The notes beneath the pieces were generated by a model, which saw only the letters and a program-made list of their open reading frames with translations, ran no database searches and was not told where the DNA came from. A stretch of DNA of 64,000 bases from Sphaerolaimus hirsutus (taxonomy: Eukaryota; Nematoda; Chromadorea; Monhysterida; Sphaerolaimidae), in NCBI GenBank assembly GCA_964036195.1, contig OZ038459.1, forward strand, positions 12,893,206-12,957,205, written 5' to 3'. Numbering within the stretch: position 1 is the stretch's first letter; each line of letters opens with the position of its first letter. Positions 32,973 through 55,547 of the stretch are shown here, in pieces. The translations under genes were made by a program, and so were the position numbers.

Positions 32973-33418
32973 CTGGAAGTATGTTTTTCTTATAAACCAA
33001 GTTTACTCAATTTTTCCAAAAAATCTAACCGTTAAAGGACGACCTTGTTATTTTGGTGTCAGTTGACCGAAAATGTGTGGCTCTCAATATTATTGTTTTG
33101 TGAATTTGTATTCAAGTGAATTGATCTTTGCATTGTCTACCCATCTTTTATACTGCCTGACGTATAGATTGATAACACACCGACCTACTAACCTACTGAC
33201 ATACTGACCTACTAACCCAATGACCTACTGACCTACTGACCTATTGACCTACTGACCTACTGACCTACTAACCCAATAACTTACTAATTCAATTACCTAC
33301 TAACCTAATTTTTATTAAACATGATTGACCTAGTGACCCATTTTTGTGTAGTCTGCAACATATAAAATCAGCCCACTGCATGTAGACACAATCAAATGAA
33401 AACAATTTTCATCCAAAG
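32973..33418. promoter_or_regulatory. Divergent promoter 1 with AGGTCA-type repeats
   Basis: Between the minus block and polB. TATA boxes face outward: TATAAAAG on the minus strand (33145-33152) and TATAAAA on the plus strand (33361-33367, 52 nt before the polB ATG). Between them (33181-33345) lie many TGACCTAC units (complement of GTAGGTCA), six of them in an 8-bp tandem run at about 33220-33268, so neighbouring half-sites are spaced as AGGTCA-NN-AGGTCA. A further TGACCTAGTGACCC lies near 33324-33340. Confidence 0.8.
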
Positions 33419-36400
33419 ATGGACAAATATAGCGAATACAAACTGGTAGATAGCCCACCACCTCCTGCACAAGATCAACACTCTGTTGAATTTTCTTCAG
33501 ATGAGTTGAATGAAGATGATGACGTTGTACAACAGCATGAAATACCAGAAGAAGTAAATTTGAATTCTCATTACGAGTATTTAAAAAATAACATAAGAGA
33601 TATGGAAGAGCATGAACCGCTTTGGCAAAAATATTTCAAAATCGAAGAACCTTGGTTAGAAAAAAATGGTAAATTTTATACAAATTATTACGTGTACAAT
33701 GTAAAATTTGTTAGCCATTTAGAAGACAAAGTAAATGACCCTATAACGTTTTTGGAGTATATTTTAGCAAAGTGCCTGGAAAAAGTGTACATAGATTTTT
33801 TTACAGATCAAGGAGAAGATGAAAATAAAAAATTATATATAGGTATAAAGGTAATGTCAAAAAGTTTTGATCGTGGATACATATTGTCTAAAATCACCCA
33901 TATACAACATGTTTCAATAGAATCAATATTAAACAGAGTGGAAATGATCTTTCAATCAGCCAGCTTAGAGGAAGATAATTTACTTAACGGTTTTTCAGTA
34001 AACATTACTACAGTGGAGAAGAAAGATATGATTGCTAAAGGGTTTAATTCATTAACAAAGCTTTTACCAGATATCCAAAGTAAAATTAATTATCACAGGC
34101 GTGCACTTTATAACCCACCTAGTATAAATTCATTGACTAATCAATGTTTAGACATATGTATATTCATGGGGCGTCAAAATATAATTGCAAATTTATACAA
34201 AAAAAATAACTTTTTTAAAAGATTTAAAAGGAGAAGTAAAAGTGGAAAATTCAACATGTTAGAAAGACATGTCAACCATTTTATTGCATATGCTACACTT
34301 CATTTTAAATATGATAAATGTAAAAATGAATTGAATTCAAATGTAAAAATTTTGATGAAAGCTATAAATAGTTTTCCACCTGTGCTGAAACAATTGAGAT
34401 ATGGATGTAGAGTGTGGTCTATACAAAATGGTGGTCTGGAACTTATTTTGGAAGAAGCATCAAATAAAAACGTAGCATGGATTGATTTGTTACACGATAA
34501 AGATCACGTTGTTTTAATTAGATCAATTAGTACTTTAGCAAATTGTTATCGTGTAACAGATTGTTGCAATAAAATAATGTTTAATAAAGACACCCTATGT
34601 AAGTGTGCCAAGTCCACTTGTCCAATGTGTTACGCATCATCAATATGCCCAATCGAGAAAGGTAAGAATACAATAGTATGTGATTTGTGCAATAGGTTTT
34701 TTTATAATAAACAGTGTTATGAAAATCATTTAAAAAATGTTTTTCCAGATAAATCAAATATACCTATAACAAGGATTTATGATTCAGACAACACATCTGA
34801 AGAAGAAGGTATTAGTGTAGATGAAATGGATATTAAAAAATCAAGTGGCGACACAGACCCATCTTGTAAACCTCTTACAGTTTGTCAGTGTGTACAATTT
34901 TGTTTAGAATGCAACAAAAAAATAATAATGTGTCAAAATCATGAAAATTGCGGATTTACTAAATGTATATATTGTAAGGAATATATTCCGAAAGAGAAGA
35001 ATTTTAGGGATCACCAATTTGAATGCTATTTTCAAAAACCCATACCTTTTGAATTTAAAAATCCAGGCAGACGGTTTGAGTTAATCTTTTATGATACTGA
35101 AACTTTTCAAAAACCTATGAATATAAGTGAAGGTAATCAAGTCTTTGATGGTAAAGTGTCGTCAAGTGGGTCGTCAAAAAATGGTGTTGTACGTATGGTG
35201 CATTCGACTTATGCAATTTATTGCGTTAAAAGGTGTAATAATTGTTTATTTGAAATTAATGCATGTGAATCATGTTTAACGTGTGTGCAGTTTTTTTATG
35301 GTTTAAATGCTATTCAAGATTTTTATTATTTTTTGATGGATTATAAAAAACATTCAAATTTAACGGTTATTGCACACAACTTGAGTTTTGATCTTTGCGA
35401 AATTTTAGCCCTTTTTATAAGGAATGGACAAATACCAAGTATACTATTGTCAAATGCACGTAGGATTTTTTATATGAAATTGAATAGTAAAATAAGCTTT
35501 TTATGTTCATTAAAGTATTTTCCAATGAGTTTGTCGCAGGTTGGAGCGGCGTTCAACTGCAATGTTCGCAAAGGTAATTTTCCACATGGTATTATTACCA
35601 TGTACAATTTGAACAGCGTTTATGAAACGTTACCATCTCTGGAATATTACGATTATGAAAATATGAAACTTGACGAAAGGAATACCTTTTTGGACTGGTA
35701 TGAAAAAAATAAAACAAACGAGTTTGACATCAAAAAAGAATGTTTTGAGTACATCAAGTCAGATGTTTTGGTTTTAGAAGAAGCATTTTGCAAGTTTTCC
35801 AAAGAAATTTATCAACATTTTAATATTATTCCACATTTGAACTCTAAAAGTTTGAGTTCTTTAGCAAACTTTATATGGAAATGTCAACATTTGGATCCTT
35901 ACACAATTGTACATACACCACCCCATAATAGTTTTAGCATAGCGGATAATCAATCCATATGGGCGATAAGAAGTATAATCGCCTTGTCAAAATATTATAA
36001 TTATCTGTATATACAATATTCTAGATCTCAGGGTGGTGAAAAAATTATACCGTGCTATGACAATCAATTTAACGTTTTGAGAAACTTTAAAGTGGATTGC
36101 GTTGTTTATAAAGACGCAGAGAAAAATGAAATTGATTTCTTTATTGAAATGCTAGGATGCCCTTTTCATGGATGTAAATCTTGTTTCAAATCTAGATATG
36201 CAAAGTTTTGACAATCTCATTTATCACATAAAGAAAATTACGATTATACCATGCAAAGAATTGGTATGATTGAAAGAGAGACGGGAAAACGCGTGGAAAA
36301 ATGGTGGACTTGCGATATAGATCAGTTGAGGAAAGATAGTTTAAAATTCGCCAAAATTTTTAATGCAATTAAAATTAGACCACCGTTAAACATGAGAAAT

Positions 36401-37921
36401 GCTTATTTTGGGGGTAGGACAGAATTATTTAGCTGCTTTGCTTCCACAAATCCATCAGGTGATTTATTTAAAGATAATCTACCACTTCAATTTAATGAAA
36501 ATGATACTATAAATGCCATAGATGTGGTTTCCATGTATCCCACAGCTATGAAAAAATTTCCAATGCCGATAAAAGCCCCCAGAGTAGTAACCCAAGAAGA
36601 GTTGAAATTTCTCAAAGGATATAAAAATAAAAAGTTACCATTTGTAGCTGGTGTTATGCAAATTGATATTTTGCCACCAAGTGATTTACTCATACCATGC
36701 TTACCAATTAAAATTGATGAATTTTCAATTTATACACTGTGTTATACGTGTGCGCAAAAATATGTGAAAGGTAAAGAGGCTCTACCTCCTCCAGAAGGTT
36801 CATACATGTGTACATGCTCAAAAAAGCAAAAAAAACTTTTCGGGACGTGGTCTGTAAATTGTATCAATATGGCGTTAGAGAGAAATTATGAAATTTTAAA
36901 TGTATACGAAGCTTTGATTTATGACAATGTATCTCAATGGACGCCAGATTCACCTACTGATGGTATATTTAGTACATTTATTGATAAAATTTTTGCCCTA
37001 AAAGTTTTATCATCTAAACATAATTTCAAAAGTTATCAGGAAAAGGTTGATTTTTGTAAAAAGTTTTATGAAATTGAAATGTGTTATTTAGATCCTGATA
37101 AATTTGAAGAAAACCCCGCCAAAACGAGAGTATGTAAGTTGTTATTAAATAGTTCATATGGGCAGTTGGGATTAAATTCACAAAAATCAAAATACGTTTT
37201 TATAAAGGACCCTACCAAGTTTATGAATACAGTATTTTCACCTGCAAATGAAATTGATGAAATTTTTATAATGAACCAAGATGTAGCTAGAGTAAAATTA
37301 AAAGCATCAAATGAATATATACAAAATTCTACAAATTCTTGTTTAATTTTAGCGTTATATATCACTAGTTATTCTAGAGCAATTTTACAACGTTTATTGG
37401 AACAGTTTTCATATAACCAGTTATTGTATTCAGACACAGATAGTTGTTATTATGTAGCTAATAATAAGGCTGGTAATTTTCACCCAAAAACTAATCCTGG
37501 TTTTCTGGGTGAATTGAGTTCTGAAGTTCCAGAGTCACAATTTGTAAGCGAATTTGTTGGTATCGCAAATAAATTTTATTCAATGACATATCGCTCAAAA
37601 GAAAATCCAGAAAATGCATATACTGTTTTGAAGGCAAAAGGTGTTAGAATGACAGCTAAAAATAAGTATTTATTACAAAGTAATGAGCTGAAAAAACAGT
37701 TAATTTCATATTTTTCACCAGAAAATTGTTCGCCATATTATTTATATACAAAAAATCTTCAATTTAGGAACAATCCCAACCTCATGTCAGTTACTACAAA
37801 TACAGTTGATAAAAAGGTTCATTTTCAGTTGAAAAAAAGATATCATTATTGGTTTGATAATCGTCCATATTCTATACCTTGGGGGTTTTCCAGCCCGCAT
37901 AAATTACCGCACAATGTCTGA
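33419..37921 (+). pseudogene. polB: Protein-primed family B DNA polymerase with in-frame TGA
   Basis: Replicates the element. About 1500 codons in one frame, interrupted by TGA at 36209-36211 (codon 931). N-terminal ~540 residues include two Cys/His-rich zinc-binding-like clusters (about 385-435 and 485-545). 3'-5' exonuclease motifs: FYDTETF (~555), AHNLSFD (~650) and YIKSDVLVLEE (~778). A GCPFHGC segment before the stop and WWTCDI after it belong to the insert typical of Polinton polymerases. Polymerase motifs: DVVSMYP (A), LLLNSSYGQLG (B), YSDTDS (C). All catalytic acidic residues are intact, so the only visible lesion is the TGA. It could be a real inactivating change, an assembly error or a readthrough site. 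The end overlaps the ATPase start by 8 nt. Confidence 0.93.
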
Positions 37922-38663
37922 TAGATATTTTAATGAAAGTGAAATTAGTTTCGCAAATTATGGCCAATCGTATTTAATAATTGGCCCAAGTCAATCGGGT
38001 AAAAGTAATTTTTGTCTTAAATTTTTGGAAGCCGCATTAAATGGTTCTTTAAATTTACCCAATACACCTGACAAAGTATTGGTATGTTCCGGCAGCAATC
38101 AACATAATCATCCTGTATACCAACAATTACAACACAAGTATCCTGGAAAAGTAGAAATTTTGGAAAGAAACAAGGTTCCGTCGTTGACGTCTTTAGACGA
38201 CACCAGTTTGGCCCAAATTGTAGTGTTTGATGATATGCAATTGGTATTACCACGATGGTACACAAACAGGCTTATAACTAACACAGTGAGTCACAGTCAA
38301 AAATTAATTGTATTACTACAATCACATGACCCTTTTTTGGATCATAGCTTAAAGGTGATACGTAGGAATTGTACATTTTTAGTATTATTCAGATATCCAA
38401 CTGAACATGTAGTTCAAAATCTTGGTTCGAGTTGGTTTGGTGGTAAATCTGAACAAAAACGGAGGTTTATTCAAGCATATATTGATGCAATAAAACAACC
38501 ATATGGGTATTTAATGGTATCCTTTCATCAAAATGTAAACCCCATTTTCCAGGCCAGATCAAATGTATTTAAAGAACGTGGACCTGATCAATTGGTATAT
38601 GATATCGCAGCCAACAATTTGGGTGAAAATAGTGATAATTATTTTACAGTATCACAAAAATAA
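37914..38663 (+). CDS. FtsK/HerA (A32-like) DNA-packaging ATPase
   Basis: Would pump element DNA into capsids. 249 residues. Walker A GPSQSGKS at residues 24-31; Walker B QIVVFDD at 101-107. A later LIVLLQSHD segment fits the sensor strand with a glutamine. I start at MSDRYF (37914) rather than further upstream because the extra residues overlap polB and precede no family sequence. The stop codon TAA shares its last A with the next start (TAATG). Confidence 0.92.
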   Translation: MSDRYFNESEISFANYGQSYLIIGPSQSGKSNFCLKFLEAALNGSLNLPNTPDKVLVCSGSNQHNHPVYQQLQHKYPGKVEILERNKVPSLTSLDDTSLAQIVVFDDMQLVLPRWYTNRLITNTVSHSQKLIVLLQSHDPFLDHSLKVIRRNCTFLVLFRYPTEHVVQNLGSSWFGGKSEQKRRFIQAYIDAIKQPYGYLMVSFHQNVNPIFQARSNVFKERGPDQLVYDIAANNLGENSDNYFTVSQK

Positions 38664-39013
38664 TGAATAGTGAGAGAACAAATAGAATTGTTCCAAGAAT
38701 AAGAAAATGTAAAAATAAATTGGAAAAAATTATTTCCAAGCAAAGTGATTCAAAATTGAAACGTTTCTTCAAAACAACTAGTAATAATGTGATTTGTTCC
38801 ATTTTGGATATATGTTACAATGTTGTAAATAATAGTGATTTTAAAAATTTGCTCACAAAGTCAGTTAAAAATTCTTTAAATTATTTTTTACCACTGTTAA
38901 AAGTTTTGTCAAGTTGTAAGTCTATAAAAAGGGTTAGAAAGTTACTTATAAAGCACGCATCATTACGTTTAATGAGGTTACTTATTAAAAGCGTTGTTTC
39001 AAAAATTTTATGA
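38663..39013 (+). CDS. Small basic Polinton virion-type protein, 116 aa
   Basis: Lys/Arg-rich. It has the layout of the short conserved protein that many Polintons and adintoviruses carry beside the ATPase: a segment like RFFKTTSNNVICSILDIC-NVVNN followed by a Leu/Lys/Arg-rich helix (RVRKLLIKHASLRLMRLL). The precise virion role is not established to my knowledge. Linked to its neighbours by TAATG upstream and an ATGA overlap downstream. Confidence 0.65.
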   Translation: MNSERTNRIVPRIRKCKNKLEKIISKQSDSKLKRFFKTTSNNVICSILDICYNVVNNSDFKNLLTKSVKNSLNYFLPLLKVLSSCKSIKRVRKLLIKHASLRLMRLLIKSVVSKIL

Positions 39014-40077
39014 TGGGCCACAAGTCAAATTTAAGTGTTAATGATTTTAAATATGTTTTAAAAAAGTTTGTAGATGAACAAACTGGTAAAGAACAATTTC
39101 AAAAATTGATTAGTGATATTATGAAAAGTAAACAATTAACGGAACGACAAAAGCTATATTTATTAGTTGCAGCAAGAAATAAAATTTCTAACATTTTAAA
39201 TTCAAAAGGAGTGAATAAAGCAGATGCATTCTCTACAACGTCTCCAACACCACCTCACCAATCACCACCACCTCAACAATCACCCCCTCAACAATCACCA
39301 CCCCCTCAACAATCACAACCCCCTCAACAATCACCACCCACTCAATCACCACAACCTCATCAATCCCCACCTCAATCCTCACCGCAAAATGAGGCTTTTT
39401 TTACTCCAAATACACCGGGTGATATCAAAAGCACTAGTAAAAAACCTAGCGGTGCAAAAAAAAGAACATTATACCAATCATTGATGAAAAGTAGACAGCG
39501 AAAGTTCGCCAAACTCTCCAAACCGAACCCTCAAAGCAGTTCTTTGACACCTCAGAGAGATGACGACCCCCTTTCTGTTGCAGTTAATAACCCTGTTTCA
39601 GTTAAGCGTGAATTACAGTATGATGATGATGATGAAGTTTCTGATGATGAACCAAAAATTTTAACCCCCCCACATGATCGTAATGAACCATATATACAAT
39701 TTGATGAAGATGATTCACCACAAATTATTAAAAAAATGCGAGAACTTCATAATGTTTTTAAAAGTAAAGTTCCAGTAAATATACAAAATCAAATCGTTAG
39801 TCCAAAAAATAAAAAACCGCTGGTCAATACAAATTATTCAGAAATTTTGAGATATTTGGCGAAAAAACATGCTGGTCACAAACCAAAGGCATCAAAAGCG
39901 ATTGTACCTCCACCAACAGGATTTGATGAATTTACAGAATATGTATATAAGACTCAAAGGCATACACGGGCAACTCACCAAGAAAAAATCAAGAAATTGA
40001 TTGGTAAAGGAAATACGTCGAGTAGAAGACATAGGAAAAAAAATCCGATTGCTTGGTATCAGGTAAAATGCCGTTGA
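39010..40077 (+). CDS. Proline/glutamine-rich Polinton protein, 355 aa
   Basis: N-terminal ~70 residues are helical (QLTERQKLYLLVAARNK) and resemble in layout the proteins that follow the small basic gene in other Polintons. Residues ~80-120 are a low-complexity PPQQSPP repeat. An acidic stretch (DDDDEVSDDEP) and a basic C-terminus (SSRRHRKKNP) follow. Probably a structural or scaffolding virion protein; this is inference from position. The start overlaps the previous stop, and the end overlaps the integrase start by 10 nt. Confidence 0.6.
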   Translation: MMGHKSNLSVNDFKYVLKKFVDEQTGKEQFQKLISDIMKSKQLTERQKLYLLVAARNKISNILNSKGVNKADAFSTTSPTPPHQSPPPQQSPPQQSPPPQQSQPPQQSPPTQSPQPHQSPPQSSPQNEAFFTPNTPGDIKSTSKKPSGAKKRTLYQSLMKSRQRKFAKLSKPNPQSSSLTPQRDDDPLSVAVNNPVSVKRELQYDDDDEVSDDEPKILTPPHDRNEPYIQFDEDDSPQIIKKMRELHNVFKSKVPVNIQNQIVSPKNKKPLVNTNYSEILRYLAKKHAGHKPKASKAIVPPPTGFDEFTEYVYKTQRHTRATHQEKIKKLIGKGNTSSRRHRKKNPIAWYQVKCR

Positions 40078-41117
40078 CTAAAAAACAAATATCGTTATTG
40101 AAATATATATGGTATGGAAGGTATAAAAAAGGTAAGATAAACGCAAAAAAAATAACGCAAGGACTATTATCTCGCGGAGAAGTGTTGTATAATGAGGTTA
40201 AAAAATATGATAAAAAAATAAAGCGTAAACAAGTTAATGAATGGTTGAAGAAACAAGAAGGTTACATTTTTGCCAAACAAGCAAAACGTTCAAGATTCAC
40301 GCGTCCAGTTATTAGTACAGGTTTATATGATTGTATTAGTATTGATTTGGCATTTTTAGGACCCCCAAAAACTAATTATGGAAATACAGCTGTATTATTA
40401 GCAGTATGCACTTTTTCTGATATGATTCATTTTAGGTTGTGTAAAAATAAATCCGCAAATCACATTACCCAAAAGTTTGAAGAAATTTTACGAGAAATTG
40501 AGGCGAGAGGTGGTTCAGTAGAGACCGTTTTTTGTGATTTTGCCGCCGAATTTCTAAGTAAGCAGTTTACAGAATTTCTTAAAAATGAAAGAATTACTTT
40601 CACACCATTGGCATCTTATCAGAAAAACTCTCCAGTAGAAAAAGTTATTTCAACTATAAGAATGAAATTGGCTAGGTTTTACGCAACTACCAAGAATAGA
40701 CGGTATTACTTTGCATTGTCCAAGATAGTCGATTCTATAAATAAAACTCCCAGAAAGTATTTAAATGACAAGGCACCTATTCAATTAACCATTTTTGATG
40801 ATAGAGAAATTTTCAAAAAACGATTCAGACCAAAACTTGATCGTGGATCTGTAAAAAATATTCCAAAAAGTAAAAGACCCAAAGTACAATTTGCATTAAA
40901 TGACCCAGTGAGAGTGAGAATACATAAAACATTTGGCAAATCTACAGATCAGAAATTTTCTTCAAACATATATTATATTGCAAAAATTAAAGACACATTT
41001 ATTCCATATACATATTATATTTCAAAAACTAAAGACGCGAGTCAATCAGAAATTTTACCAAAAGTATATTATTCAGGTGATTTGATAAACGCTAATCAAG
41101 ATGAAGACGAGACTTGA
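40068..41117 (+). CDS. int: Retroviral-type (DDE) integrase
   Basis: Joins element ends to host DNA, giving the 6-bp duplication seen here. 349 residues from ATG 40068. The catalytic triad is visible: D in CISIDLAFLG, D in FCDFAAEF and E in NSPVEKVISTIR, with spacing usual for the rve fold. The N-terminal helical basic region lacks an obvious HHCC zinc finger. The C-terminus (DPVRVRIHKTFGK) fits the SH3-like DNA-binding tail that follows the core in Polinton integrases. The end overlaps the next gene by 17 nt. Confidence 0.92.
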   Translation: MPLTKKQISLLKYIWYGRYKKGKINAKKITQGLLSRGEVLYNEVKKYDKKIKRKQVNEWLKKQEGYIFAKQAKRSRFTRPVISTGLYDCISIDLAFLGPPKTNYGNTAVLLAVCTFSDMIHFRLCKNKSANHITQKFEEILREIEARGGSVETVFCDFAAEFLSKQFTEFLKNERITFTPLASYQKNSPVEKVISTIRMKLARFYATTKNRRYYFALSKIVDSINKTPRKYLNDKAPIQLTIFDDREIFKKRFRPKLDRGSVKNIPKSKRPKVQFALNDPVRVRIHKTFGKSTDQKFSSNIYYIAKIKDTFIPYTYYISKTKDASQSEILPKVYYSGDLINANQDEDET

Positions 41118-41460
41118 AGAGCGACAGAACCTCAATAAACACCCATATAAAGAAACCACTACCGAGATGGTGGATGCTACTACAAATACCGAACCATTAA
41201 TTTTACATACTAGCGAAGGCAAAAAAAATTCATGCACTATAAATAAAAAACTCATGGTACAAGTGGGTATTACGTTTGTTCAATCTATTACAATATTAAT
41301 TGTATTAGTGTATTTAACCACATTTTTACCTTCAAAAACTATATATGAACAATCTCCAGACATTTTGCGAGCATTTTTAAGAGTTTTTGATAGAAAAAGT
41401 GATCAAGAACAAATTTACGACTTGATTTTTGCAAATCATAAAAATATTACACGAGTATAA
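41101..41460 (+). CDS. Single-pass membrane protein, 119 aa
   Basis: One strong membrane segment around residues 58-80 (VGITFVQSITILIVLVYLTTF), a polar N-terminus and a ~35-residue C-terminal domain. No family recognised. Small membrane proteins in this position may be virion membrane-active proteins; this is inference. It shares one base with the next start (TAATG at 41458-41462). Confidence 0.65.
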   Translation: MKTRLEERQNLNKHPYKETTTEMVDATTNTEPLILHTSEGKKNSCTINKKLMVQVGITFVQSITILIVLVYLTTFLPSKTIYEQSPDILRAFLRVFDRKSDQEQIYDLIFANHKNITRV

Positions 41461-42671
41461 TGGAAGCAAAGGCTAGTGAGTATAATATAGATATAATTTT
41501 AGAGCCTAACGAAGATTCGTTAGCTCTGAATATGGTGTATGATTTTCCGACCAATAATATTCGTTTTAACTTATCACAAAATTGGGAAATTGCATTATCG
41601 TCCCTAGCATTTTCACATTTAGATAGAACTGAATGTCTTTTGGAAAAAGAATTACCGAGTTATCACATTGTGTTTGATTACGACGGTAAATTTCATTTTT
41701 GTAAAGTAAATTTTTCAAAACTCATGGTTAATAATAAAAATTTTTTAAAAATTCCATCAAATGAGGATATAATCAAATGTGTTAAAGACGCATTTCATGA
41801 CGCTATAGAATGTAAAGATTTACATGAGTTGAAAGAACAATTGGGAACTTTTTATTATCCATATTTATTTGATGTCATATCTGAACACCAAAAATCACCC
41901 TTGACAAAAAAAATAAGTAGAAAACGTAGGCACGTACCATTTGAACCAGATATACACGAACATGATTGGTCATTGAAACAAGTGGGTAATGCAGTATATT
42001 TGTATAGCACAAACTCTCTCAAACCATCATCTAGCCCGATAGCAACAAGCCCATCAACAATAATTGATGATGTGAAAAAGATTGAAAAGAGACAGGCACC
42101 TAAGGAACCAGAAGCACAAGTAACAAGCACTGTAGCAGATGAGCAAGTGCCTACGCCTACAAAACCAGCACCCGCAAAACCAGCGCCCGCAAAACCCGCA
42201 CCCAAGAAACCCGCACCCAAGAAACCACCACCTACGTTGGATTTTGTTCAATGTTATAATGATGACTGTTTTTTGGTAAAATCAAATGTTCAATCTATAT
42301 ATGTTTCAGAATCACTGAGAAATTTACTTTCATTAGAAAGTAAATTGTTGACAAATAATACTTTTATATATCCGCATATAGGCTTTTTTCGTGGTTCTCA
42401 ACAGCTATATATAGCTGAAATTTCGTCACTTCAAAAAACATTATTTGGGTGCAATAAAGTGTCACTAGGCAATATATTTTTGAACAACTCAAAAGTTATT
42501 CAAAGCGTTGATTTTAAGCCATTAATTTTAAAGTTTTTTCCATTTGATTCAGTATACACTAATAGATTAACGTTCACTTTTTTTCATGAAAGTGGTCAAG
42601 TTGTGAAATTGGCACAAAATACTCAAATTTTTGTGTCATTAACCTTGAGAAGGAGACCGCTGTTGCAATAA
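41460..42671 (+). CDS. Putative minor capsid/penton-type protein, 403 aa
   Basis: Near the N-terminus, IRFNLSQNWEIALSSLAF matches the LxxxWEVALxE-type segment seen in a recurrent Polinton structural protein; I take it as a minor-capsid candidate. The middle has a PAKPAPAKPAPKKP repeat at about residues 240-260, followed by a beta-rich C-terminal half. It sits between the membrane protein and the core protein, just ahead of the major capsid. The assignment is tentative. Confidence 0.5.
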   Translation: MEAKASEYNIDIILEPNEDSLALNMVYDFPTNNIRFNLSQNWEIALSSLAFSHLDRTECLLEKELPSYHIVFDYDGKFHFCKVNFSKLMVNNKNFLKIPSNEDIIKCVKDAFHDAIECKDLHELKEQLGTFYYPYLFDVISEHQKSPLTKKISRKRRHVPFEPDIHEHDWSLKQVGNAVYLYSTNSLKPSSSPIATSPSTIIDDVKKIEKRQAPKEPEAQVTSTVADEQVPTPTKPAPAKPAPAKPAPKKPAPKKPPPTLDFVQCYNDDCFLVKSNVQSIYVSESLRNLLSLESKLLTNNTFIYPHIGFFRGSQQLYIAEISSLQKTLFGCNKVSLGNIFLNNSKVIQSVDFKPLILKFFPFDSVYTNRLTFTFFHESGQVVKLAQNTQIFVSLTLRRRPLLQ

Positions 42672-42675
42672 TAAT

Positions 42676-43116: not shown

Positions 43117-43177
43117 GCATCTATTATAAAAGTACCGATTATTCTCATTTTTTAGTTAGTACATTTTTCTCTCAAAA
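43117..43177 (+). promoter_or_regulatory. Possible late promoter for capsid gene
   Basis: The 61-nt gap before the capsid gene, the largest in this block, contains ATTATAAAAGT at about 43121-43131, roughly 50 nt before the capsid ATG. This fits a TATA box giving a short leader. Confidence 0.4.
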
Positions 43178-45177: not shown

Positions 45178-46076
45178 TCAAATCCACTCTGAATCAACAT
45201 TTTCCTCCTCCTCGTGCTTTTCTTGCTCCTCATATTTGATCGGCTTGTCCCACGCCAAGTACATGTCCAAGTCAGATTGCAACTTCATCTTGTTGACGGC
45301 TGGATCGGTTTCGCAATTTTCAGCAATCGGTTCTAATACTGGACAAAAAGCCTTGTAAGATGGCCATGAACAATATGACATTTGAGCTGGTTTATACCAC
45401 ATACTGCCCCACCCCGAGGTGGTTAAATCAGCACCTGCGTGTCAAGGTATTCTACCGCCACCCAGCCAAACACCTAGTCAAAGCAACAAAAAGTAACAAA
45501 CTGTATGGAATCGGGTTCTTGCCCCCCGCAAAATCGGTTCGCGTTAAAAATTCATGAAATTCTGCTTGTTTATTCATGCAAAATCTACCTTGTATTGGGG
45601 CATTGGGGTTCGGTTCAATTAATTCAGGGAGCATGTATTTTTCCAGCACCAAGTTTGCGACATGCATACCTTTGGTAACATAAAATGGTGTCATTGAGAG
45701 ATTGAATAAGAGTATACCGGTGTTTCCGCTATAGTCGATCAAATCTGTAGTGGGAACGTGTGTTGTGTAATATCTAAAAACCATCTACACGTCCCAACCT
45801 ACCATTTATAGGCACAATACCATACCACAATGCCAAACATAATTGATTGGACACTCGCATGTATACACCATTTGGAGTCATAAATCTTACATCAAGCATT
45901 ACATAACACCTCCCTCCAGGTGGAATGTAATATTCATATGCTGAATAGACTCTAAAGCCCACTTCATGGTGATCCCAAATTGGAGCAAATGAATTGCTAG
46001 TTATTCTTTGAAAGCAAATTTGCTTAGGTCTTTCATTGCAAAAGTAATATGGTGAAGTGTGGTTAGTCATTGCCAT
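45178..46076 (-). CDS. Second dUTPase-fold protein, spliced, catalytic motif lost
   Basis: Three exons: 46076-45803, 45744-45456, 45403-45178. Introns are 58 nt (donor GTAGGT, acceptor CTACAG) and 52 nt (donor GTAGAA, acceptor GGGGCAG). Phases join to 262 residues. The dUTPase fold is visible: AP...HEVGFRVYSAYEYYIPPGG (motif 1 region), then DLIDYSGNTGILLFNLS (motif 3 region) and KGMHVANLVLEKY (motif 4 region). The motif 1 Asp is Arg, the SGLA loop is not kept, and GDRIAQLI has become GMHVANLV, so it is probably not a dUTPase. An acidic tail (EEQEKHEEEE) replaces the C-terminal lid. I take the start at 46076 because a minus TATA box (TATATAAAGG, 46115-46124) lies inside the longer frame. Possibly a regulatory or structural derivative. 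Confidence 0.7.
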
Positions 46077-46410
46077 CTTTGTATGGCTGGATGGTTGATA
46101 GACTGAATGAATTGCCTTTATATATGGAATCAACTCATCACGTGACCTCTATTTTTTCAAATTAGTCAATTAAAATGTAGGTCACTAGGTCATGATTCAA
46201 TTAAAATATAGGTCACTAGGTCATGATTCAATTAAAATGTAGGTCACTAGGTCATGATGCAATTAAAATGTAGGTCACTAGGTCATGACCCAATTAAAAT
46301 GTAGGTCACTAGGTCAATGTTTCAAAAACAGAAAATTTGAGAGGTATAAAAGGTGAGCCCATTCACTCACTTGATCATTCACTCATCAATTTCAACACAA
46401 GCAGCTGAAG

Positions 46411-46462
<52 letters not shown>

Positions 46463-46463
46463 C
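46077..46463. promoter_or_regulatory. Divergent promoter 2 with five RevDR2-like repeats
   Basis: Five 31-bp tandem units, each AATTAAAATRTAGGTCACTA + GGTCATG..., place AGGTCACTAGGTCA at 46179-46192, 46210-46223, 46241-46254, 46272-46285 and 46303-46316. TATA boxes face outward: TATATAAAGG (minus, 46115-46124) and TATAAAAG (plus, 46345-46352). A (CA)n run lies at 46416-46460 in the plus-strand leader. Confidence 0.88.
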
Positions 46464-47978
46464 ATGATGGCAGCAGCTCACACGGGAGCAAAACTAGCTT
46501 CAACTACACGCAAAGTAGTTGATGCAGTAATTGAACAAGGACGTCAGGATGATGACGTCAGTAATGAGGAAGATGAAAGACCAATGGTTATTGATAGCAG
46601 TGTCGGCGGTGGCAACAGAGTTTGTAGTGGCGGAGGTTCGTTTGCAGGTGTTTATGGTCGGAGCAAAAAAGAAATGGTGTATAAAAAGAAGAAAATGAAT
46701 TACCCCTTGATAACCATGTTCAGTTTTCGTTGGCTCGTCTTTGCGCTTTGTAGAACGTGTGAAACACGTACCAAATTTTTGACCTCAAAATTGTATAGTG
46801 ACGACAGCGTGGAAGTACAAATCAGAATGTGTACGCAGTGCCGTATACGCCACGAAAAAATGATTGAAGCAGTTAGACATAGACCCCTCGATGGTAATGT
46901 ATTCAATGAATCAACCCCAACACACAGCGGCGGTCACCCGCCCAAGCAGTTTGAAAATACCACAGCTGCAAACAATTACAAAAGACCCTACTACTAATGT
47001 AACAAATGCGCTAATTGAAAAAGTCAAAAAAATGAACGAGCAAACAGTGGACGAAAAGAAAGTGGACGAGAAAAAAGACGATGAAATGGACACGGGCAAA
47101 TGGGATAGTATCAGTGATTCAACAAATGATGAAATAAAATATATAAAAAGTAAGATGGTACCCTTTGGGATACTTTATAAATTTCCTTTCGAAGCTGTGG
47201 CGGATCTAGCGACGCCGCCACCACATTTTATAATTTGTGGTGAAGGAGGTTATCAAAAGAATGCTGCTAGGGGGTTTGATAGCAATATTGTGATCAATAT
47301 TAATAACACCAAGTAATTCCCCCTCTGCAGGAATATTCCCAAAATTCTGGTTTAATCGAAAAGGTTCAATTTTCCTTTTAACAAACCCAAAGGATTTGTA
47401 TCTTCGCGCCGATACTTCAAGCAGTCAATTGGACTGTTTACGAATTGTAATATATACCGTTATCAATGAAATTCTAGACATACGTAATATGAGTCTCAAA
47501 TCACTAATGGATTTGAATGTTGCAACACAAATTGAGTGTTTCCAAGCACTACGTAACAAACGTTGTCCATATGCCGGGCGTGCCGGCTTTCTCCTCGCTC
47601 AAAGATTCCTACACCTACAATTTGCTCTAAAGCCATTCCAAAATTCATTTCTCATGGGCGCTACATCACCCGAAAATATGCAATCCATCATAAACAAATG
47701 GCCAAAATCAGAAATAAATTTACACATTGCTAGAAATTATGTTGCGGATAAGTTTGCAGCTTTGGGAGCGAATGATATGAAAAATGGGCTATATCAAGAA
47801 TGGCCCCAAGGAGAGATTGATCCATTCGATGGCAGAGCCGCCATTGTCAAATCGTGGTTACTGGCAGGATATGCCTGCCACCCCCTATTTGATACAACCC
47901 TACCGCACTGCTACGCCAGGGATGATGAAGAAAAGGAAAATATATACTGCAATGGGACATGCCCATGGCACAGGGCCT
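46464..47978 (+). CDS. Spliced accessory protein with CxxC pairs
   Basis: Unknown function. Exon A 46464-46893 begins MMAAAHTGAK, has a Gly-rich stretch, and two Cys pairs (CRTC and CTQC, 33 residues apart) that could bind zinc. Exon B (from about 46928 or 46966 to 47239) is charged (VDEKKVDEKKDDE). Exon C (47331-47978) runs through IFPKFWFN and a region with Cys pairs ending near CPWHRAC. The A/B junction is ambiguous: a 34-nt intron (46894-46927) or a 67-nt one (46899-46965). B/C fits donor GTGAAG and acceptor CCCTCTGCAG (47240-47330). After 47978 (donor-like GTAATT) the frame enters a CCTTTTTA repeat and no further exon is identified. Confidence 0.5.
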
Positions 47979-50628
47979 GTAATTTTACCTTTTTACCTTT
48001 TTACCTTTTTACCTTTTTACCTTTCTTACCTTTTTACCTTTTTACCTTTTTACCTTTTTACCTTTTACCTTGTACCTTTCTTACCTTGTTACCTTGGTAC
48101 CTTTTACCTTTCTTACCTTTCTTACCTTGTACCTTTTTACCTTTTACCTTTTTACCTTTTTACCTTTTACCTTTTTTTGCCTTTTTTTTGTAAAAAGGGG
48201 GGCCGCGTGCCTATTTTTTACCCCTAACCTACAAAAACCTACAAAAAGCCTAAAAAACTAAAAAAACACAACCCGCACCCTCCCCTCACCCCAAAAAACC
48301 CCAAAACCGCCCCCAAAACTGCCCCCCAAAAACCCAAAACCGCCCCCTCTAGCAAAACCGTCCCCCAAAAAAACCCCAAAAAAACCCCCAAAAAAACCCA
48401 AAAACCCCCCAAACCTCGCAGTGTTCGGCCACAACGATTCCATCCAAGTTGGCAAATCCACGCAAGTGTGACAACAGCAGGGAGAATGTTTTGTGATGTG
48501 CAGAGTGAATTTTTCATCGAATTGTGATTACACAGGGTGGCCATTTTTACGTTTTCTGGTGCCAGATGGTGATTTGGTGTAAATAGTTGCTTCACGCATT
48601 CTCAATTATACAAAATGCTACACCGCCATATTTTATTTACATTTACACCACCGTGTTTTACATCACTACAAATAAATGCAAAAAAAAATCAGATCAAAAT
48701 TGGGAAAATAAATGGCAAAAAATTGATCAGATCGAAATTGGGGGATAAATGGCATGAATAAAAATTGCTGTGCACATGCGTGCTGCACTATAATTCGAAT
48801 CATGCTTTCTTTTTGCGCATGCACACATGTGTGCAATTAAACTGGAACATAAATCACTTAAAGCCAAACTGCATAACTAGAGATTGCATAAAAGTGGGTG
48901 TAAAGCTACTCAGGGGTAGGGTTCAAATGAATTTGTAAAATGTCTGGTTATCTCAAAAGTGTTGCTTGTAAAATGTCAAGTCATGCTAAATGTTCTCATT
49001 TGAACCCCATATTTATGCATAGATGTTTGAAACACCAAAAAATACAAATGAGAATTAACAGGTGGCACAAAAAACGAGTCTCTGCGAACCGCATGCTATG
49101 CATTTGCATTTTTGATTTTTTGCTTTTTGACAAAAGTAATTTTGGACGCATACTTTGCGGTCAGCCGAGTGTAGAAAAAACAGGCGGAAGGGTAAAAACG
49201 GTATAAAAAAGACCTCCTAAGTGATACCAAAAAAACAGGCGCGACACAGTGAAAAACCCTAAGTGATACCGAGTGGGGGTTACGAAATTAAACCCCAGGT
49301 GTTGCAGTGTAGACCACATGATATGCATATTTCTAAACAGTAATTTTGTTTGCATACTTTGTGGTCAGCCAGTAATTTTGTATGCATACTTTGTGGTCAG
49401 CCAAGTGATAAAAAGTGAAGAAAAACCTAAGTGATACAAGTGGGTGTGACACAAATAAAATCCAGCGCGAAATAATATGCGGACCACATGCTATGTATTT
49501 TTTCTGAAACGTTTGGCCACATACTTTTCGGTCAGAAGTGATTTTAGGTACATACTTTGCGGTCAGCCGAGAAACTGGGTGGGGGGGGAACAAGTGGGGA
49601 TTGTGCTCTAATCTTGCACTAAAAACAGAAGCGCAACAATTGCGACTAGTGATGGAAAAAGTTGGGAGCTTGTAAGCATTTTTCCATGGTGCCACACATA
49701 AATGACACCAAAAAATACTGGCTCGTTACTAAAACACATCACCATGATACCATTTTTGTGTAGCACCAAGAAAAATTTCTCCAAGTGCCATGCTTTTTTC
49801 TGGCGTCAAGAAGAGTATCACCACAAATACTTGCCGCTGAAGCGCATACTCATGGTGCTATTTTTCCTGATGCCAGAAAAAAGCGTGGCACTTGGAGAAA
49901 TTTTTTCTTGGCGCCACACAAAAATGGTATCATGGCGATTTTTTTCATGTGCAGGCGATTTTTTCATGTGCATTACCGAACCTAAGCTCCATGGTACTTT
50001 TTCATCACTATACGCGACGAAAAAACTCACAAAATAGGTGCATGTCGCACCACACCGCACAAAAACTAAACCTGTCACATAAACCGTGAAAACTAAACCT
50101 GTCGCACAAACAAGTGCGTAGCGGACGCACAAAAGTGACACAAAAAACTGCTACACAACACTACAGCTAGCCACACAAACTGCAACAAACTACAGCTAGC
50201 CACACAAAACTGCAAAAAAGTGAACACTGCAATAGAAGCACAGGTAACAAACATAGGTGTGGATCACAAAATTGAATGGTTGTTGAAAAAAATGACAAAA
50301 ATGGTATACTCGGCAGACATGATACTCTACAATATTCATTCATGGATAGACACCGAAAAAATCCTACTATTTTCATGGATAGATTCCAAAAAAATTCCAT
50401 TTTTTCTATGCTTGTGACCTGTGCTTAAACATCACGCTCAACTGAAACGCTACTCCGATCAATTACATTTTGCCGCTCAGCCACCACGTCGCATGTCACA
50501 CTGCAATAAGGGGTGAGAAGGGATGAGTTGTGAAAAAATGTCATCAAATATGACGTGAAAACGTGTCATCAAATATGACTGATTTTTACATGACATTTTT
50601 CTGAGCCAAACTTTTCCAAAAGACATCA
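47979..50628. other. Polinton non-coding region, low complexity and host-type repeats
   Basis: Position 47985-48175 is a CCTTTTTA/TACCTTT repeat; 48180-48420 has C- and A-runs. Position 49145-49570 contains four copies of GCATACTTTGYGGTCAGCC. Position 49646-50010 looks like a degraded TAGTGATG-ended MITE. At 50150-50215 CTAGCCACACAAACTGC is duplicated, and 50303-50335 has the TATACTCGGCAGACATGATACTCTAC word found in host repeats. I see no gene, so this part of the element has been colonised by host repeats. Confidence 0.5.
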
Positions 50629-50957
50629 TCAAATGATATTTTTTCCAAAAAATTCACCTGGATCACCACGCATGTTGTTGTTGTACCGCACACGGTTCAA
50701 ACTGTGCGGGGGTGCGTTGAAACTGGATGCGCGCTGCACGATTCGACCCATGGAGCGGTTGCTGGCGCCCACAAGTCTGTTGCCGGCGGCCACGTACTGG
50801 TGGCCAACGTCCACCAATGGGCCAACGTCCACTAATTGGCCAACGTTGCAAACGTCCCGCAACTGCCCGTTTTCATCGAAAAACGGATTGTTGCGGGAAG
50901 CGTTGTGGGCGGGCGCGTTGGAGGCCGGTGCGTTTTGCTGGCTCAACCGAACGTTGT
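50629..50957 (-). pseudogene. Decayed paralogue of an accessory-gene exon
   Basis: Minus-strand frame after acceptor CATTCAG, reading EFHNVRLSQQNAPASN and ending GDPGEFFGKNII then TGA. The end resembles FRPGQFFGQEM, the end of exon 4 of the 502-aa gene at 53067-55210. There the exon stops at a GTATGT donor; here the matching position reads ATCATT, so the splice site is lost. Both are Asn/Gln/Ser-rich. Probably a duplicated, now broken copy. Confidence 0.45.
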
Positions 50958-50997
50958 GGAACTCATCTGAATGGCTTTGATTGTTATTTAAAGTGGA

Positions 50998-51331
50998 ATG
51001 TCAGGTAAAGTCAAAATTAACGTAAAACGTAAAACGTTATACTTTGTATTCGATTTTACGTGACATTTTGTGATTTTTCACTTACAATTTGACTCAATAA
51101 TTGAACCCGCTGCGCTGACTCAACATTTTGACTCGATATTTTGGTTCTATACGACACGACAGACATTTTGACTCGAATCGAGCCAAAATATCGAGTCAAA
51201 ATGTTGAGTCAGCGCAGCGGGTTCAATTATTGAGTCAAATTGTAAGTGAAAAATCACAAAATGTCACGTAAAATCGAATACAAAGTATAACGTTTTACGT
51301 TTTACGTTAATTTTGACTTTACCTGACATTG
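50998..51331. repeat. Near-perfect palindrome, ~150-bp arms
   Basis: Arms 50998-51147 and 51183-51331 are complements of each other, including TGTCAGGTAAAGTCAAAATT and its complement. The centre is near 51165. A second partial copy of the arm follows at 51331-51600 and runs into the N gap. Confidence 0.9.
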
Positions 51332-51640
51332 AGCCAAAATATTGAGTCAAAATGTTGAGTCAGCGCAGCGGGTTCAATTGTTGAGTCAAATTGTAAGTGA
51401 AAAATCACAAAATGTCACGTAAAGTCAAAAATAACGTAAAACGTAAAACGTTATACTTTGTATTCAATTTTACGTGACATTTTGTGATTTTTCACTTACA
51501 ATTTGACTCAACAATTGAACCCGCTGCGCTGACTCAACATTTTGACTCGATATTTTGGTTCGCTACAACACAACAGACATTTTGACTCGATATTTTGGTT
51601 CGATATGACACGACAGACGTTTTGACTCGAATTGAGCCAA

Positions 51641-51840
51641 NNNNNNNNNNNNNNNNNNNNNNNNNNNNNNNNNNNNNNNNNNNNNNNNNNNNNNNNNNNN
51701 NNNNNNNNNNNNNNNNNNNNNNNNNNNNNNNNNNNNNNNNNNNNNNNNNNNNNNNNNNNNNNNNNNNNNNNNNNNNNNNNNNNNNNNNNNNNNNNNNNNN
51801 NNNNNNNNNNNNNNNNNNNNNNNNNNNNNNNNNNNNNNNN
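51641..51840. other. Assembly gap (200 N)
   Basis: Exactly 200 Ns, a typical placeholder of unknown true length. It is flanked on both sides by long palindromes, which probably caused the break. Confidence 1.
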
Positions 51841-52140
51841 CGAATTCACTAAATTCAATAATTGCGTAAGGTGGAGCGACACCGATTAGACGCATCGATA
51901 TCGATATCTATATGATCTTTATTCACGTATCGATATCATTATATTGATATCGATACGATGCGTCTAATCGGTGTCGCTCCACCTTACGCAATTATTGAAT
52001 TTAGTGAATTCGGTCATCTCTATATCAACTCGAGTCGACTCGAGTCGATCTACTTTATGCAATCATTGAACCTAGTCGACTCGAGTCAATATAAACGTGA
52101 CCACGTCGACTAGATTCAATGATTGCATAAAGTAGATTGA
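51841..52140. repeat. Two further palindromes right of the gap
   Basis: First: arms 51841-51899 and 51953-52012 (CGAATTCACTAAATTCAATA and complement) around CGATATCGATATC words. Second: arms 52047-52083 and 52104-52137 (TCTACTTTATGCAATCATTG and complement) with GTCGACTCGAGTC between. All these palindromes contain a TTCAATNATTG-like core. Confidence 0.85.
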
Positions 52141-53066
52141 CCCCAACCACAAACCCAAAAATTCTCAAAAGAAAAAAGCAAACCCCCCAACATACACAAA
52201 CTCAGCCTATCAACTAATTAAATTTGCCTTCCTGAATTGAACATTAATTTTGTAGACTCGATTATCGGTTGCCGGTTGCCATGAAAAAATCTTCATACAA
52301 ATGTCTTGATGGAAACCTGCGGGTGATAATAAATATATCATTCAAATATTTACACACGTGTATGAACGCGGCGGCGGTAAAATGGGGGAAAAAGATGCAA
52401 ATTCGATCAAGAGATGAATTATTTAATTAGAGGAATTGATAGCTCATTCTGGGTTGACATTTACAATGATAAGAATGTAACTGAAACAATAAAATATTTC
52501 GAAATAGTGCCTACATTTGTTCCAACATTGAATGATGTCATATTTTTATGCCTGAACTTGGTTCAAAATGTTTTTATTTTGTTATATACACTCCTAAACA
52601 TCTCTTTAAAATGAATAAAAACAATTTACCTGGTTTTTTCCTGATTTTTTTAAATGAATTCAAACATAAATCTATATAAAACTACAAAAAAAGTATGTTT
52701 TTTCCCCAGCTTTTTACAAACAGAAAGTTATTTTACACACGTAAATTGACATATTTCACTATTTTACATTCGCTAAACATAAAATACCCGTATATTTATG
52801 TATTTATCAAATTCAAAAACCGTTTGTGTGCATTTTGGTACAAGTGTGTCATTAACTTTTGAATTCGATAAATACATAAATATACGGGTATTTTATGTTT
52901 AGCGAATGTAAAATAGTGAAATATGTCAATTTACGGGTGAAATTTGTTACTTTATGTGCGTAAAAGTAAATATTAACTAAATTTTCACACATTTCATTCA
53001 TTTTTATAGGATACTGACAGGAACTTTGTTCATTTACTTGATATTACCGTAATTTATGTAACCATT
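52141..53066. other. Polinton non-coding region with a palindrome
   Basis: Arms 52741-52816 and 52858-52934 form another inverted repeat (words AAAATACCCGTATATTTATG and complement). A 66-codon frame at 52414-52614 with a hydrophobic end has no recognised homologue and may be chance. Confidence 0.5.
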
Positions 53067-55210
53067 TCACATTATGTCAACAATATTTGCCATATTATTC
53101 ATCCAAATGGCAATGATCAAAAGCAATAAATAGTGTTCCCCACAATTTAAATCAAACATGGACATATGGAAAATGCTCCTCAATCTATTCAGGCCAAATT
53201 GATCACTAGAAGAACGTAAAAAATTAGACAATAAATACTGATAAACAGGTTGTGAATAGGGTCTGACAAAAAAATCTGTCAAACTTGTCAAAACATTAAC
53301 AGTTTGAGCTCCTGAACCCCAAAAACTATTAAATATGCATTCTCTAACAGCCCTATTAGCTCTAAAAGTGTCCAATGCATGCTGAATTATTCTCATGGTA
53401 TTTTGTTGACCACACTGAACATTGGTCAACATAAACATCATAGTGAACTGTGCAACATGTCTACCATATAATGCCTGAATAGGGGGGATTTTATGCTTGA
53501 TTCATTAAATTTGAATAAATAAATACCATATTTCTTCAAATACAAGAGTGCTATTCTATTGGATGTGTCATTCTATTGGAGGCAGCCATTCTATTATATT
53601 TATGAGTGCAAAAAATTAAAACCTGTTCTATTTGAGGAAATATAGTGTGCTCCATTAACTAACAAATACTGTCACTATAAGCGTGTCGTCAATATTGTAT
53701 TCGTGTGCGTCCTCTCTAGACCAGGTCTCAAATCTCGGTATGATATAATGAGTAAACATAAAATTCAAGCTAAAATTAATTTAAAAAATAAATTTTTTAA
53801 AATATTTATATTCATTTATTTATTTTAGCTTGAATTTTATGCTTACTAATGACTTGATCTCAACAATTGGCCCAAATTTCTGAATATATTTATATTAATT
53901 ATTATAAAAAATTACAAAAACTTTAATGACTGACCCAAATCTATTGAAGCATGTTAACGTTCTCACATCCATTGTTCTCAAATATGGGTGTGCATCTACA
54001 TTTATTGCATAGTTTGGGTATAAAATAGGTGGAAATTGGTTATAAATCTGATTGAATCTTCCAAGTACAACAACTCTATTATTTGGAGTGTTTCCATCAC
54101 ACTGCCTTCGAATAGCCCTATTATTTCCATTTAAATACCTGTATACAAAAATTTATGTAATAAGCACCTAAATTGTTACTTTTTTACATACATTTCCTGT
54201 CCAAAAAATTGTCCCGGTCGGAATTGAACAATGTGGTGTGGTAAATCATACATTCTTTGATCCACGGCACTATTGTCTTGACACGTTTGAGTTTGGGGCC
54301 TTACTGTAGCAGCATTTATATTTGATTGTGTTGACACACGATTTTGAGAAGCATAGGGTGATGGTCTCTGCAAATAAAAATATGTACCATATTTATTCTA
54401 ATATAAGAACATTAATTTCTACTCACTTGATTAGGTATAACAGCTTGTATATCGCGCCTCAATTGATTTATTCTATTTAGCTGAAACTCTCTCCTAGACA
54501 TGGGAACCTCCCGATTTATAGAAAAATTATCATTTTGACTTGAGCATGAAACTCCTTCATCATGCTGTCTAGATGTAGAAGCCCCTTCATTTATCCTCAA
54601 AACATTTTTATTCAAATTTGTTTTTAAAGCGTCATTTTTATTTGACAGTAATCTCATTTCATTCTGATTAGACAGTGATGCTACCGTATTCATCGCATGT
54701 TGAACTGGGGGACTATCACCATTTTGAACAAGTAAATCTGACGAATCAATTTCATCAGGGGGTACTCCCAAACCCTGTAAAGTGTCAGATGAATTTTGGA
54801 TATTTTCTGCAGGTGTGTTTGAAGGGGGGTGTGGAGAATTCTGGTTGTTATCAGATGTATTTGTGGCTGCATTTGAAGCATTTGGGGTGTTTTGAGGTGG
54901 GTTTTGAGTATTTGATTCTGTATTTTCTATGACACTCTCTTGTCCATTTGGGTTAGCATCTGCACAATAAATACATATACATATACATAATTTTGCTAGC
55001 CAACTTGGAAAAAAGAAACCTGGGTGATTTACGAAAAAAAAGTTATCCAATTCATTTAAATCTCCATCATTGGGATTGGGTCCAGGTCTGTAAAATGAAA
55101 ATTGGTACAACTAAATAATAGTATTATTTCATATAATCTTACCCTGGGTTTATTGTCCATGCCAACGGACATAAAATCACGACCACAATTAAATGCAGAA
55201 AAAAAACCAT
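53067..55210 (-). CDS. Secreted Asn/Gln/Ser-rich accessory protein, seven exons
   Basis: Unknown function; not visible as one frame. Exons that join in phase: 55210-55143, 55087-55020, 54959-54427, 54367-54192, 54138-53916, 53879-53847, 53474-53067 (502 residues). Exon 1 is a textbook signal peptide (MVFFLHLIVVVILCPLAW). Exon 3 is a long disordered region rich in Asn, Ser, Pro and Gln. The C-terminal exon is more ordered, with a hydrophobic helix (YLLLLIIAIWM) near the end. Donors GTAAGA, GTTTCT, GTGAGT, GTATGT and GTAAGC look normal for this genome. Introns 1-4 are 53-60 nt, intron 5 is 36-42 nt (least certain), and intron 6 is 372 nt and holds an inverted repeat and a host-type repeat. The gene is divergent from the 461-aa gene across promoter 3. 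Confidence 0.6.
53475..53846. repeat. Intron 6 of the secreted-protein gene: hairpin plus host repeat
   Basis: Inverted arms at about 53753-53778 and 53822-53846 (AAACATAAAATTCAAGCTAA and near-complement). Position 53525-53650 has TACCATATTTCTTCAAATACAA and ...TTTGAGGAAATATAGT, resembling the host TACCGTATTTCCTCGAAATA MITE family. Confidence 0.55.
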
Positions 55211-55547
55211 TTTTTACGGGTAAATTGTAGAATGAAATGATTACCGATCCATCTCTGTACACTTACAGTTCCACCAAGGTCAATCAAATTAAGTGTATCA
55301 TTTAACACGCACATATTATGGTATATCTACGCAACATGATCATTTGTTAACCAGCTCAAAATGTAACCATTTTTGAACATAAAAAATGGGTCAAAATATA
55401 TGAAAAATTAGGGTCAATAGGTTGAAAAATGGGGTCAGTGTGTTATTTCTGTATTGAAAAATAGGTTACTAGGTCATGCTAAAAATAACCACACATAAAA
55501 TGAGTATAAAAAGGGCTGATCTCTTTATTAAAGTCACCATTCAAATC
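55211..55547. promoter_or_regulatory. Divergent promoter 3 with degenerate DR2 motifs
   Basis: Contains AGGGTCAATAGGTTG (55410-55424) and AGGTTACTAGGTCA (55463-55476), both preceded by A/T runs, plus AATGGGTCA and AATGGGGTCA single sites. TATA box TATAAAAAGG at 55505-55514 faces the plus gene (ATG 55548). No clear minus-strand TATA box was found. Confidence 0.65.

Follow-up and report, generated by a model that had tools for sequence, protein, structure and literature searches.

Arrays of putative host transcription-factor sites at divergent promoters of nematode Polintons differ in type between families

Among the EMALEs of Cafeteria, related integrated elements of one protist host, different types carry distinct promoter motifs, which have been attributed to different giant viruses (PMC8547959, PMC10945749). 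EMALEs are the closest precedent for the pattern described here, which concerns a Polinton/Maverick element in a 64-kb stretch of the 348-Mb genome of the nematode Sphaerolaimus hirsutus (G000:C15:12893206-12957205, hereafter the window) and its relatives in the same genome. In contrast to the EMALEs, with their protist hosts and giant-virus-linked motifs, the host is an animal, the promoters are divergent TATA promoters, and the arrays in them match classes of host factors. Three further systems offer partial parallels. RevDR2, the site of Rev-erb (NR1D1), is a direct repeat of AGGTCA with a 2-bp spacer (DR2) and an A/T-rich 5' flank (PMC10712084). Alu elements have spread DR2 retinoic acid response elements, although those sites arose largely from CpG deamination in a short interspersed element (PMC1785376), whereas the sites here lie in the promoters of the element's own coding genes and are conserved with turnover. 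The NFI site TTGGC(N5)GCCAA is found in a DNA virus at the adenovirus replication origin (PMC1277823), whereas here it occurs in internal promoters of some families. Among the titles and first parts of abstracts listed in searches of the open-licence literature, with subscription papers and preprints outside, nothing concerned promoter codes of animal Polintons, and gene control of these elements seems little studied.

We investigated the DR2 sites that a first-pass annotation had placed at all three divergent promoters of the element. In the 64 kb, AGGTCANNAGGTCA with at most one mismatch gave 13 matches, against a mean of 0.25 and a maximum of 3 in shuffled sequence (0 of 100 shuffles reached 13); tandem repeats inflate the counts at promoters 1 and 2, so that only the three places count as independent. 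All 13 matches lay at the three promoters, at 33197-33339 (minus strand, seven), 46179-46316 (plus strand, five, all exact) and 55463-55476 (plus strand, one, with one mismatch). The sites and the TATA boxes around them are as follows, in window positions.

33182..33307, minus strand: promoter 1, array of GTAGGTCA units in 8-bp steps, a run of DR2 half-sites degenerating towards 33307
33326..33339, minus strand: promoter 1, single RevDR2-like site GGGTCACTAGGTCA with an A/T-rich 5' flank, read as AAAAATGGGTCACTAGGTCA
33146..33152, minus strand: promoter 1, leftward TATA box, by eye
33361..33367, plus strand: promoter 1, rightward TATA box, towards PolB, by eye
46166..46325, plus strand: promoter 2, a 31-bp unit present five times, with TAGGTCACTAGGTCA following an A/T-rich flank in every unit (RevDR2)
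46117..46124, minus strand: promoter 2, leftward TATA box, by eye
46345..46351, plus strand: promoter 2, rightward TATA box, by eye
55410..55424, plus strand: promoter 3, degenerate DR2 AGGGTCAATAGGTTG, read in sequence
55463..55476, plus strand: promoter 3, AGGTTACTAGGTCA, one mismatch
55505..55512, plus strand: promoter 3, TATA box, on this strand only, by eye

A repeat search recovered the promoter 1 array in 8-bp steps at 33182-33273, with 16- and 24-bp rows reaching 33307, and a 31-bp array of 5.1 units at promoter 2 (46166-46325). The annotated layout therefore held throughout: a tandem run with 2-bp spacing at promoter 1, five 31-bp units after an A/T-rich extension at promoter 2, weak, degenerate copies at promoter 3, and motifs between outward-facing TATA boxes at promoters 1 and 2 and beside the single box at promoter 3. 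The claimed match to the RevDR2 consensus also fits the published description, with five of five promoter 2 units agreeing (PMC10712084). An A/T-rich 5' extension precedes the promoter 2 units, the single promoter 1 site at 33326-33339 and the promoter 3 site at 55463. It is absent before the inner units of the 8-bp run at promoter 1, which, together with the arrangement in arrays within a virus-like element, distinguishes these sites from RevDR2 as described.

The half-sites of such nuclear-receptor (NR) promoters read ANTRGGTYA, the Rev-erb/ROR form. In seven promoters of the window family (A) and of families B and C, RGGTYA pairs within 8 bp of each other were arranged as DR2 in 42 cases, a count inflated by tandem units, and in all other geometries in 4; shuffles of the same promoters gave a mean of at most 0.01 DR2. 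Across nine NR-type promoters, the base at position -1 of the half-site was T in 103 of 125 cases, whereas for half-sites in the rest of the window the figure was 14 of 79. At position -3, A or T accounted for 119 of the 125, although the A at -3 inside the 8-bp runs belongs to the preceding half-site, which leaves the T as the independent evidence within those runs. Preference for T at -1 is a trait of the Rev-erb/ROR group.

Genome-wide, the exact DR2 pattern occurred at 170 places and the reversed pattern, which was the only whole-genome control, at 65. Among the first 100 of the 170 places listed (C1 to C9), 88 were in Polinton promoters or internally deleted derivatives, indicating that the motif is concentrated in Polintons within this listed part; the remaining 12, of which six were inspected (L001, L016, L031, L032, L038 and L042), do not lie in Polintons or are not known to. 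Three of the places, L036 (C3:19703800), L037 (C3:24407600) and L049 (C9:11424000), appear to be internally deleted, non-autonomous derivatives in which DR2 sites like those of promoter 1 are retained; the stretches read yielded no Polinton protein, and the terminal repeats of L036 are those of the window family (98.9%). L038 (C4:26985094) has an isolated ATGTAGGTCACTAGGTCA together with two DR2 sites in degenerate form, at a distance of about 150 bp from TATAAAAGG, with no recognised Polinton gene adjoining.

DR2 was kept at promoter 1 in copies whose PolB identity had fallen to 69-71% (B) or 74-79% (C), and in B also at promoter 2. The unit length varied, with 8 bp at promoter 1 and 31 bp at promoter 2 of A, 20 and 33 bp at promoters 1 and 2 of B, and both 8 and 31 bp at promoter 1 of C. 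Promoter 2 of C85 had no DR2 and carried the same half-site as palindromes without a spacer (IR0). Arrangement thus turns over while the half-site stays constant, as expected of a bound site.

We then read promoter 1 in 49 Polinton copies, scored out of 299 candidates and chosen by PolB rather than by motif; the set is incomplete even for family A, as the A-type copies L007 and L040 are outside it. Scoring DR2 in a 260-bp core and sorting in the order DR2 (two or more hits), NFI (two or more), TTACAC (four or more) and HOX-like (one or more), we found four promoter codes: NR/DR2 in 20 copies, NFI palindromes in 9, a weaker CDX/posterior-Hox-like code in 9 and a TTACAC-type repeat in 11. By common 12-mers, the 49 copies form 15 groups. 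Minor hits of other codes were one HOX-like word in five C copies, three TTACAC-type words in four E89-type copies and two in L096. The idea that DR2 is a general Polinton property consequently fails, as 29 of the 49 copies have no DR2 in the promoter 1 core and carry other codes instead; related copies without the repeats are what the first-pass annotation had itself named as evidence against its proposal. Conservation of DR2 in other copies, which it had proposed as a check, holds for the relatives at 69-79% PolB identity and not for these 29. The promoter motif is a type-specific trait here, as in EMALE typing.

In eight promoters of four families, NFI half-sites in the arrangement TTGGC-N5-GCCAA gave 29 matches with up to two mismatches (8 of them in the tandem array at promoter 1 of E89), against 17 at eleven other spacings combined. 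The HOX-like code may include both forms of the CDX/posterior-Hox site, CAATAAA and TCGTAAA, with GCAATAAAA present twice in promoter 2 of D92 and GTCGTAAAA twice in promoter 2 of D96. A single origin of either code was not favoured: the NFI families E91, E88 and F93 lay apart in the tree (approximately unbiased (AU) test, p 0.015; E89 not in the tree), and for the NR code the result was borderline (AU p 0.0496); these trees were built from short pieces of 281 columns, too little sequence for counting switches. They suggest that neither the three NFI families tested nor the NR families make up a single clade, and codes may have been swapped between families.

Having read A and B, we noted the prediction that each promoter 2 would share its code with promoter 1, and then read promoter 2 by position in 11 further copies. 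It was sought in 17 stretches (13 + 4); L110, L113, L116 and L117 had no recognisable promoter 2, and two further ones, L101 and L114, border on or overlap with stretches that have one. By eye, the two codes agreed in 13 of 13 pairs, where the B pair joins promoter 1 of copy L006 to promoter 2 of family copy L044 (promoter 2 of the first copy, L002, has the same array). A motif-free comparison of shared k-mers agreed with this: permuted pairings shared as much as the 13 true ones in 0, 9 and 41 of 100,000 cases for k = 5, 6 and 7, and an earlier run with 11 pairs gave 1, 8 and 29 of 20,000. Additionally, the NR, NFI and TTACAC codes exceeded shuffles at both promoters in every family so filed (counts reached by no more than 1 of 300 shuffles; cores of 138-260 bp). 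Over six promoters, the HOX-like code was clear in two (D92 promoter 2 and D96 promoter 2, each 0/300), weak in two (D92 promoter 1, 19/300; D94 promoter 1, 16/300) and not above shuffles in two. Taken together, the sorting by family, the 13 pairs and the permutations indicate that codes are family-specific and common to both main divergent promoters.

The host genome encodes factors of the classes that the NR and NFI codes resemble. A zf-C4 search gave 30 exon matches, and from their signatures we take the DNA-binding domains (DBDs) to include E75/Rev-erb (C14:15329104-15329536), HR3/ROR, E78, RXR, EcR and others. The best PDB match of the E75/Rev-erb DBD exon was Rev-erb alpha (1a6y), and the exon after it encodes AVRFGRVPKKEK, presumably the C-terminal extension of the receptor DBD. 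That extension contacts the A/T-rich 5' flank of RevDR2 (PMC10712084). Host NFI matches were found at three places. Set against published site rules, the NR and NFI codes fit exactly in spacing (for NFI, PMC1277823), and the HOX-like code fits more loosely the two forms, CAATAAA and TCGTAAA, described for CDX2/HOXB13 (PMC5896879). As readers of DR2, E75, HR3 and E78 are indistinguishable at the sequence level. The proposed link to a host nuclear-receptor signal is thus partly supported, for the DR2-type families, by the RevDR2 match, the host E75/Rev-erb homologue and the recurrence of DR2, and does not extend to Polintons in general. At C7:20406965-20409627, a further nuclear-receptor DBD exon, HR96-like by eye, lies 2.6 kb upstream of PolB of a TTACAC-type Polinton. 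We considered it as a captured receptor and rejected this, since the surrounding 3.2 kb had no significant match to left-arm Polinton genes, and we treat it as a host gene.

The element itself has the terminal inverted repeats and the 6-bp target duplication of a Polinton, together with a type B DNA polymerase, PF03175 being found on both PolB pieces. Its main features are listed below.

29902..57862: Polinton/Maverick element, 27,961 bp, with terminal inverted repeats
29930-30045 and 57720-57835: inverted repeat pair, 116 nt, 98% complementary
29902-29950 and 57814-57862: inverted repeat pair at the outermost ends, 49 nt, 82%
29896..29901: left 6-bp target-site duplication GACAAA, read in sequence
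57863..57868: right 6-bp target-site duplication GACAAA, read in sequence
33419..36211, plus strand: PolB, first open piece (PF03175, E 1.2e-20), query for finding other copies
36251..37921, plus strand: PolB, second open piece (PF03175, E 1.4e-15)
40068..41117, plus strand: retroviral-type integrase-like protein (PF00665, E 1.5e-4, with 22.4 bits under a curated cut-off of 32.6)
43178..44599, plus strand: putative major capsid protein, named from gene order, 78% identity over the aligned part in family B
44658..45176, plus strand: cysteine protease, Ulp1/C48-like (PF02902, E 2.4e-4, just above cut-off)
45181..46148, minus strand: leftward gene of promoter 2, dUTPase-like, open stretches in several frames (PF00692, E 1.4e-4 on 45455-45784)
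46464..46997, plus strand: P2R, rightward gene of promoter 2, with a CxxC...CxxC core kept in families of all four codes

The polymerase of adenoviruses, a protein-primed type B enzyme, is kin to that of Polintons. In the window copy the PolB frame is interrupted between its two pieces (36209-36250). At 47 of the 49 scored places PolB lies in a single open frame of 1491-1567 aa (one has an internal stop in the match), so that the genome holds many Polintons with apparently open PolB. The putative capsid protein had no sequence match in Pfam or PDB, candidates for the packaging ATPase were weak AAA matches, and the zinc-domain protein P2R matched Pfam weakly, below cut-off. A search of IMG/VR with the capsid protein, the PolB piece and a two-row capsid alignment found no relative of the element, and Rfam (gathering threshold) and tRNA scans gave no match.

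Several other observations concern the arms and surroundings of the element. It has two dUTPase-like genes, a clear one in the left arm (30054-30533, minus strand, PF00692, E 8.8e-32) and the split, diverged one at 45181-46148 (minus strand). The left-arm gene at 31144-31695 (minus strand) matches MACPF/perforin very weakly (E 0.015, below cut-off). At 50997-51573 the element contains nested inverted repeats of about 160 bp, probably a later insertion. The gene beside promoter 3 (54415-55110, minus strand) is strongly divergent among family-A copies with 98% identical PolB (51% at C15:18758886), which points to exchange of the right arm. Outside the element, window positions 21677-22996 hold ten 101-bp units, each with a TTC run at its end, followed by about 110 TTC triplets.

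On balance, we regard it as probable that the arrays are transcription-factor sites switching both arms of the Polinton, that the class of site is a family trait and that the NR code is most likely read by host receptors. Arrays between outward-facing TATA boxes would switch the two arms together. In the window family and its two relatives, Rev-erb/ROR-type half-sites, mostly as DR2 and once as IR0, would be read by the E75/Rev-erb and HR3/ROR group, in which E75/Rev-erb receptors would repress and HR3/ROR receptors activate. Other families would have an NFI, CDX/posterior-Hox-like or TTACAC code at the same place, with one main code at both main promoters, and the code would set the tissue or stage of expression of the family. 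What the data show directly are the sites, the exact spacings of the NR and NFI codes, their specificity to families, their sharing between promoters 1 and 2 and the presence of NR and NFI genes in the host; binding by host factors and such a role in tissue or stage are inferred.

Several results weigh against this explanation. The words used to score the HOX-like and TTACAC codes, and the rule for sorting, were fixed after looking and are partly post hoc, and the HOX-like code was not above shuffles at promoter 2 of D94 (82/300) or promoter 1 of D96 (67/300). Codes are not perfectly exclusive, as TTACAC words exceed shuffles in the NFI-type E89 (promoter 1, 3/300; promoter 2, 0/300) and at promoter 2 of E91 (2/300); moreover, no reader could be named for the TTACAC code. 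The 13 promoter pairs come from related elements and hence are not fully independent. Promoter 3 is weak in the window, with one one-mismatch DR2 and one degenerate copy, and the one equivalent read outside the window family, in the NFI-type E91 (a stretch of 801 bases next to a gene of 30% identity), had no NFI or DR2 site. The proposed coupling of the whole gene programme is thus based on promoters 1 and 2 rather than on all promoters.

As for who reads the sites, a receptor outside the E75/HR3 group, such as RXR, a RAR-like receptor or other heterodimers, is a less probable reader of DR2 that still deserves serious attention. The host has RXR and others, which we name by their DBD signatures, and promoter 2 of C85 uses IR0. 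DR2 is also a retinoid-receptor site (PMC1785376), but T occupies position -1 in 103 of the 125 half-sites and isolated sites have A/T-rich flanks, both of which fit the Rev-erb/ROR group. It is unlikely that a transcription factor encoded by the element itself, co-evolving with its sites, reads the codes. One main code per family at promoters 1 and 2, changing in concert, would be expected of such a factor, and many element genes have no family match; yet 25 distinct element reading frames contained no Pfam transcription-factor family above cut-off, and the NR and NFI codes fit host factor classes at exact spacing. We also examined P2R, the sole clear zinc-domain candidate, and judged it an unlikely reader: its core is nearly invariant in eight sequences spanning all four codes (one of NFI type), and A shares 58% of it with the NFI-type E91 versus 51% with the NR-type B (E88 and F93, outside this alignment, have tblastn identities of 32% and 45%).

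Less probable again is that the codes copy promoters of a helper virus whose superinfection switches the elements on, as in virophages and EMALEs. EMALE types do have distinct promoter motifs, one of them matching the CroV late promoter (PMC8547959, PMC10945749), but the mavirus motif is a short, A/T-flanked TCTA in the 100 nt before each gene (PMC10945749), whereas here arrays of sites precede the TATA boxes and have the spacings usual for host factors; there is no known helper virus in this system, and no search for one was made. Neutral growth of tandem repeats by slippage would account for the tandem structure of promoters 1 and 2 and for copy numbers that differ among copies. We consider it very improbable, given that the same site occurs in two promoters about 13 kb apart, in units of unlike length on opposite strands, with strict 2-bp or N5 spacing and with the core retained even in degenerate units.

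Beyond the reading by host factors favoured above for this set of families, we tentatively propose, as a possibility somewhat short of probable, that transcription factors divide the host among animal Polintons, with the main promoters of every family tied to a developmental or hormonal regulator of its own (a nuclear receptor, NFI, CDX/Hox or an unnamed fourth), codes being exchanged wholesale in the course of family divergence and giving each family a niche of tissue or stage. If each family were tied to a named host regulator, the cells and stages of its activity would be predictable and testable by ordinary reporters. This would also provide an annotation rule, in which Polintons are typed by promoter code, and would account for the coexistence of dozens of related elements in a single genome. 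The code would then define the niche of an element much as receptor use defines the tropism of a virus.

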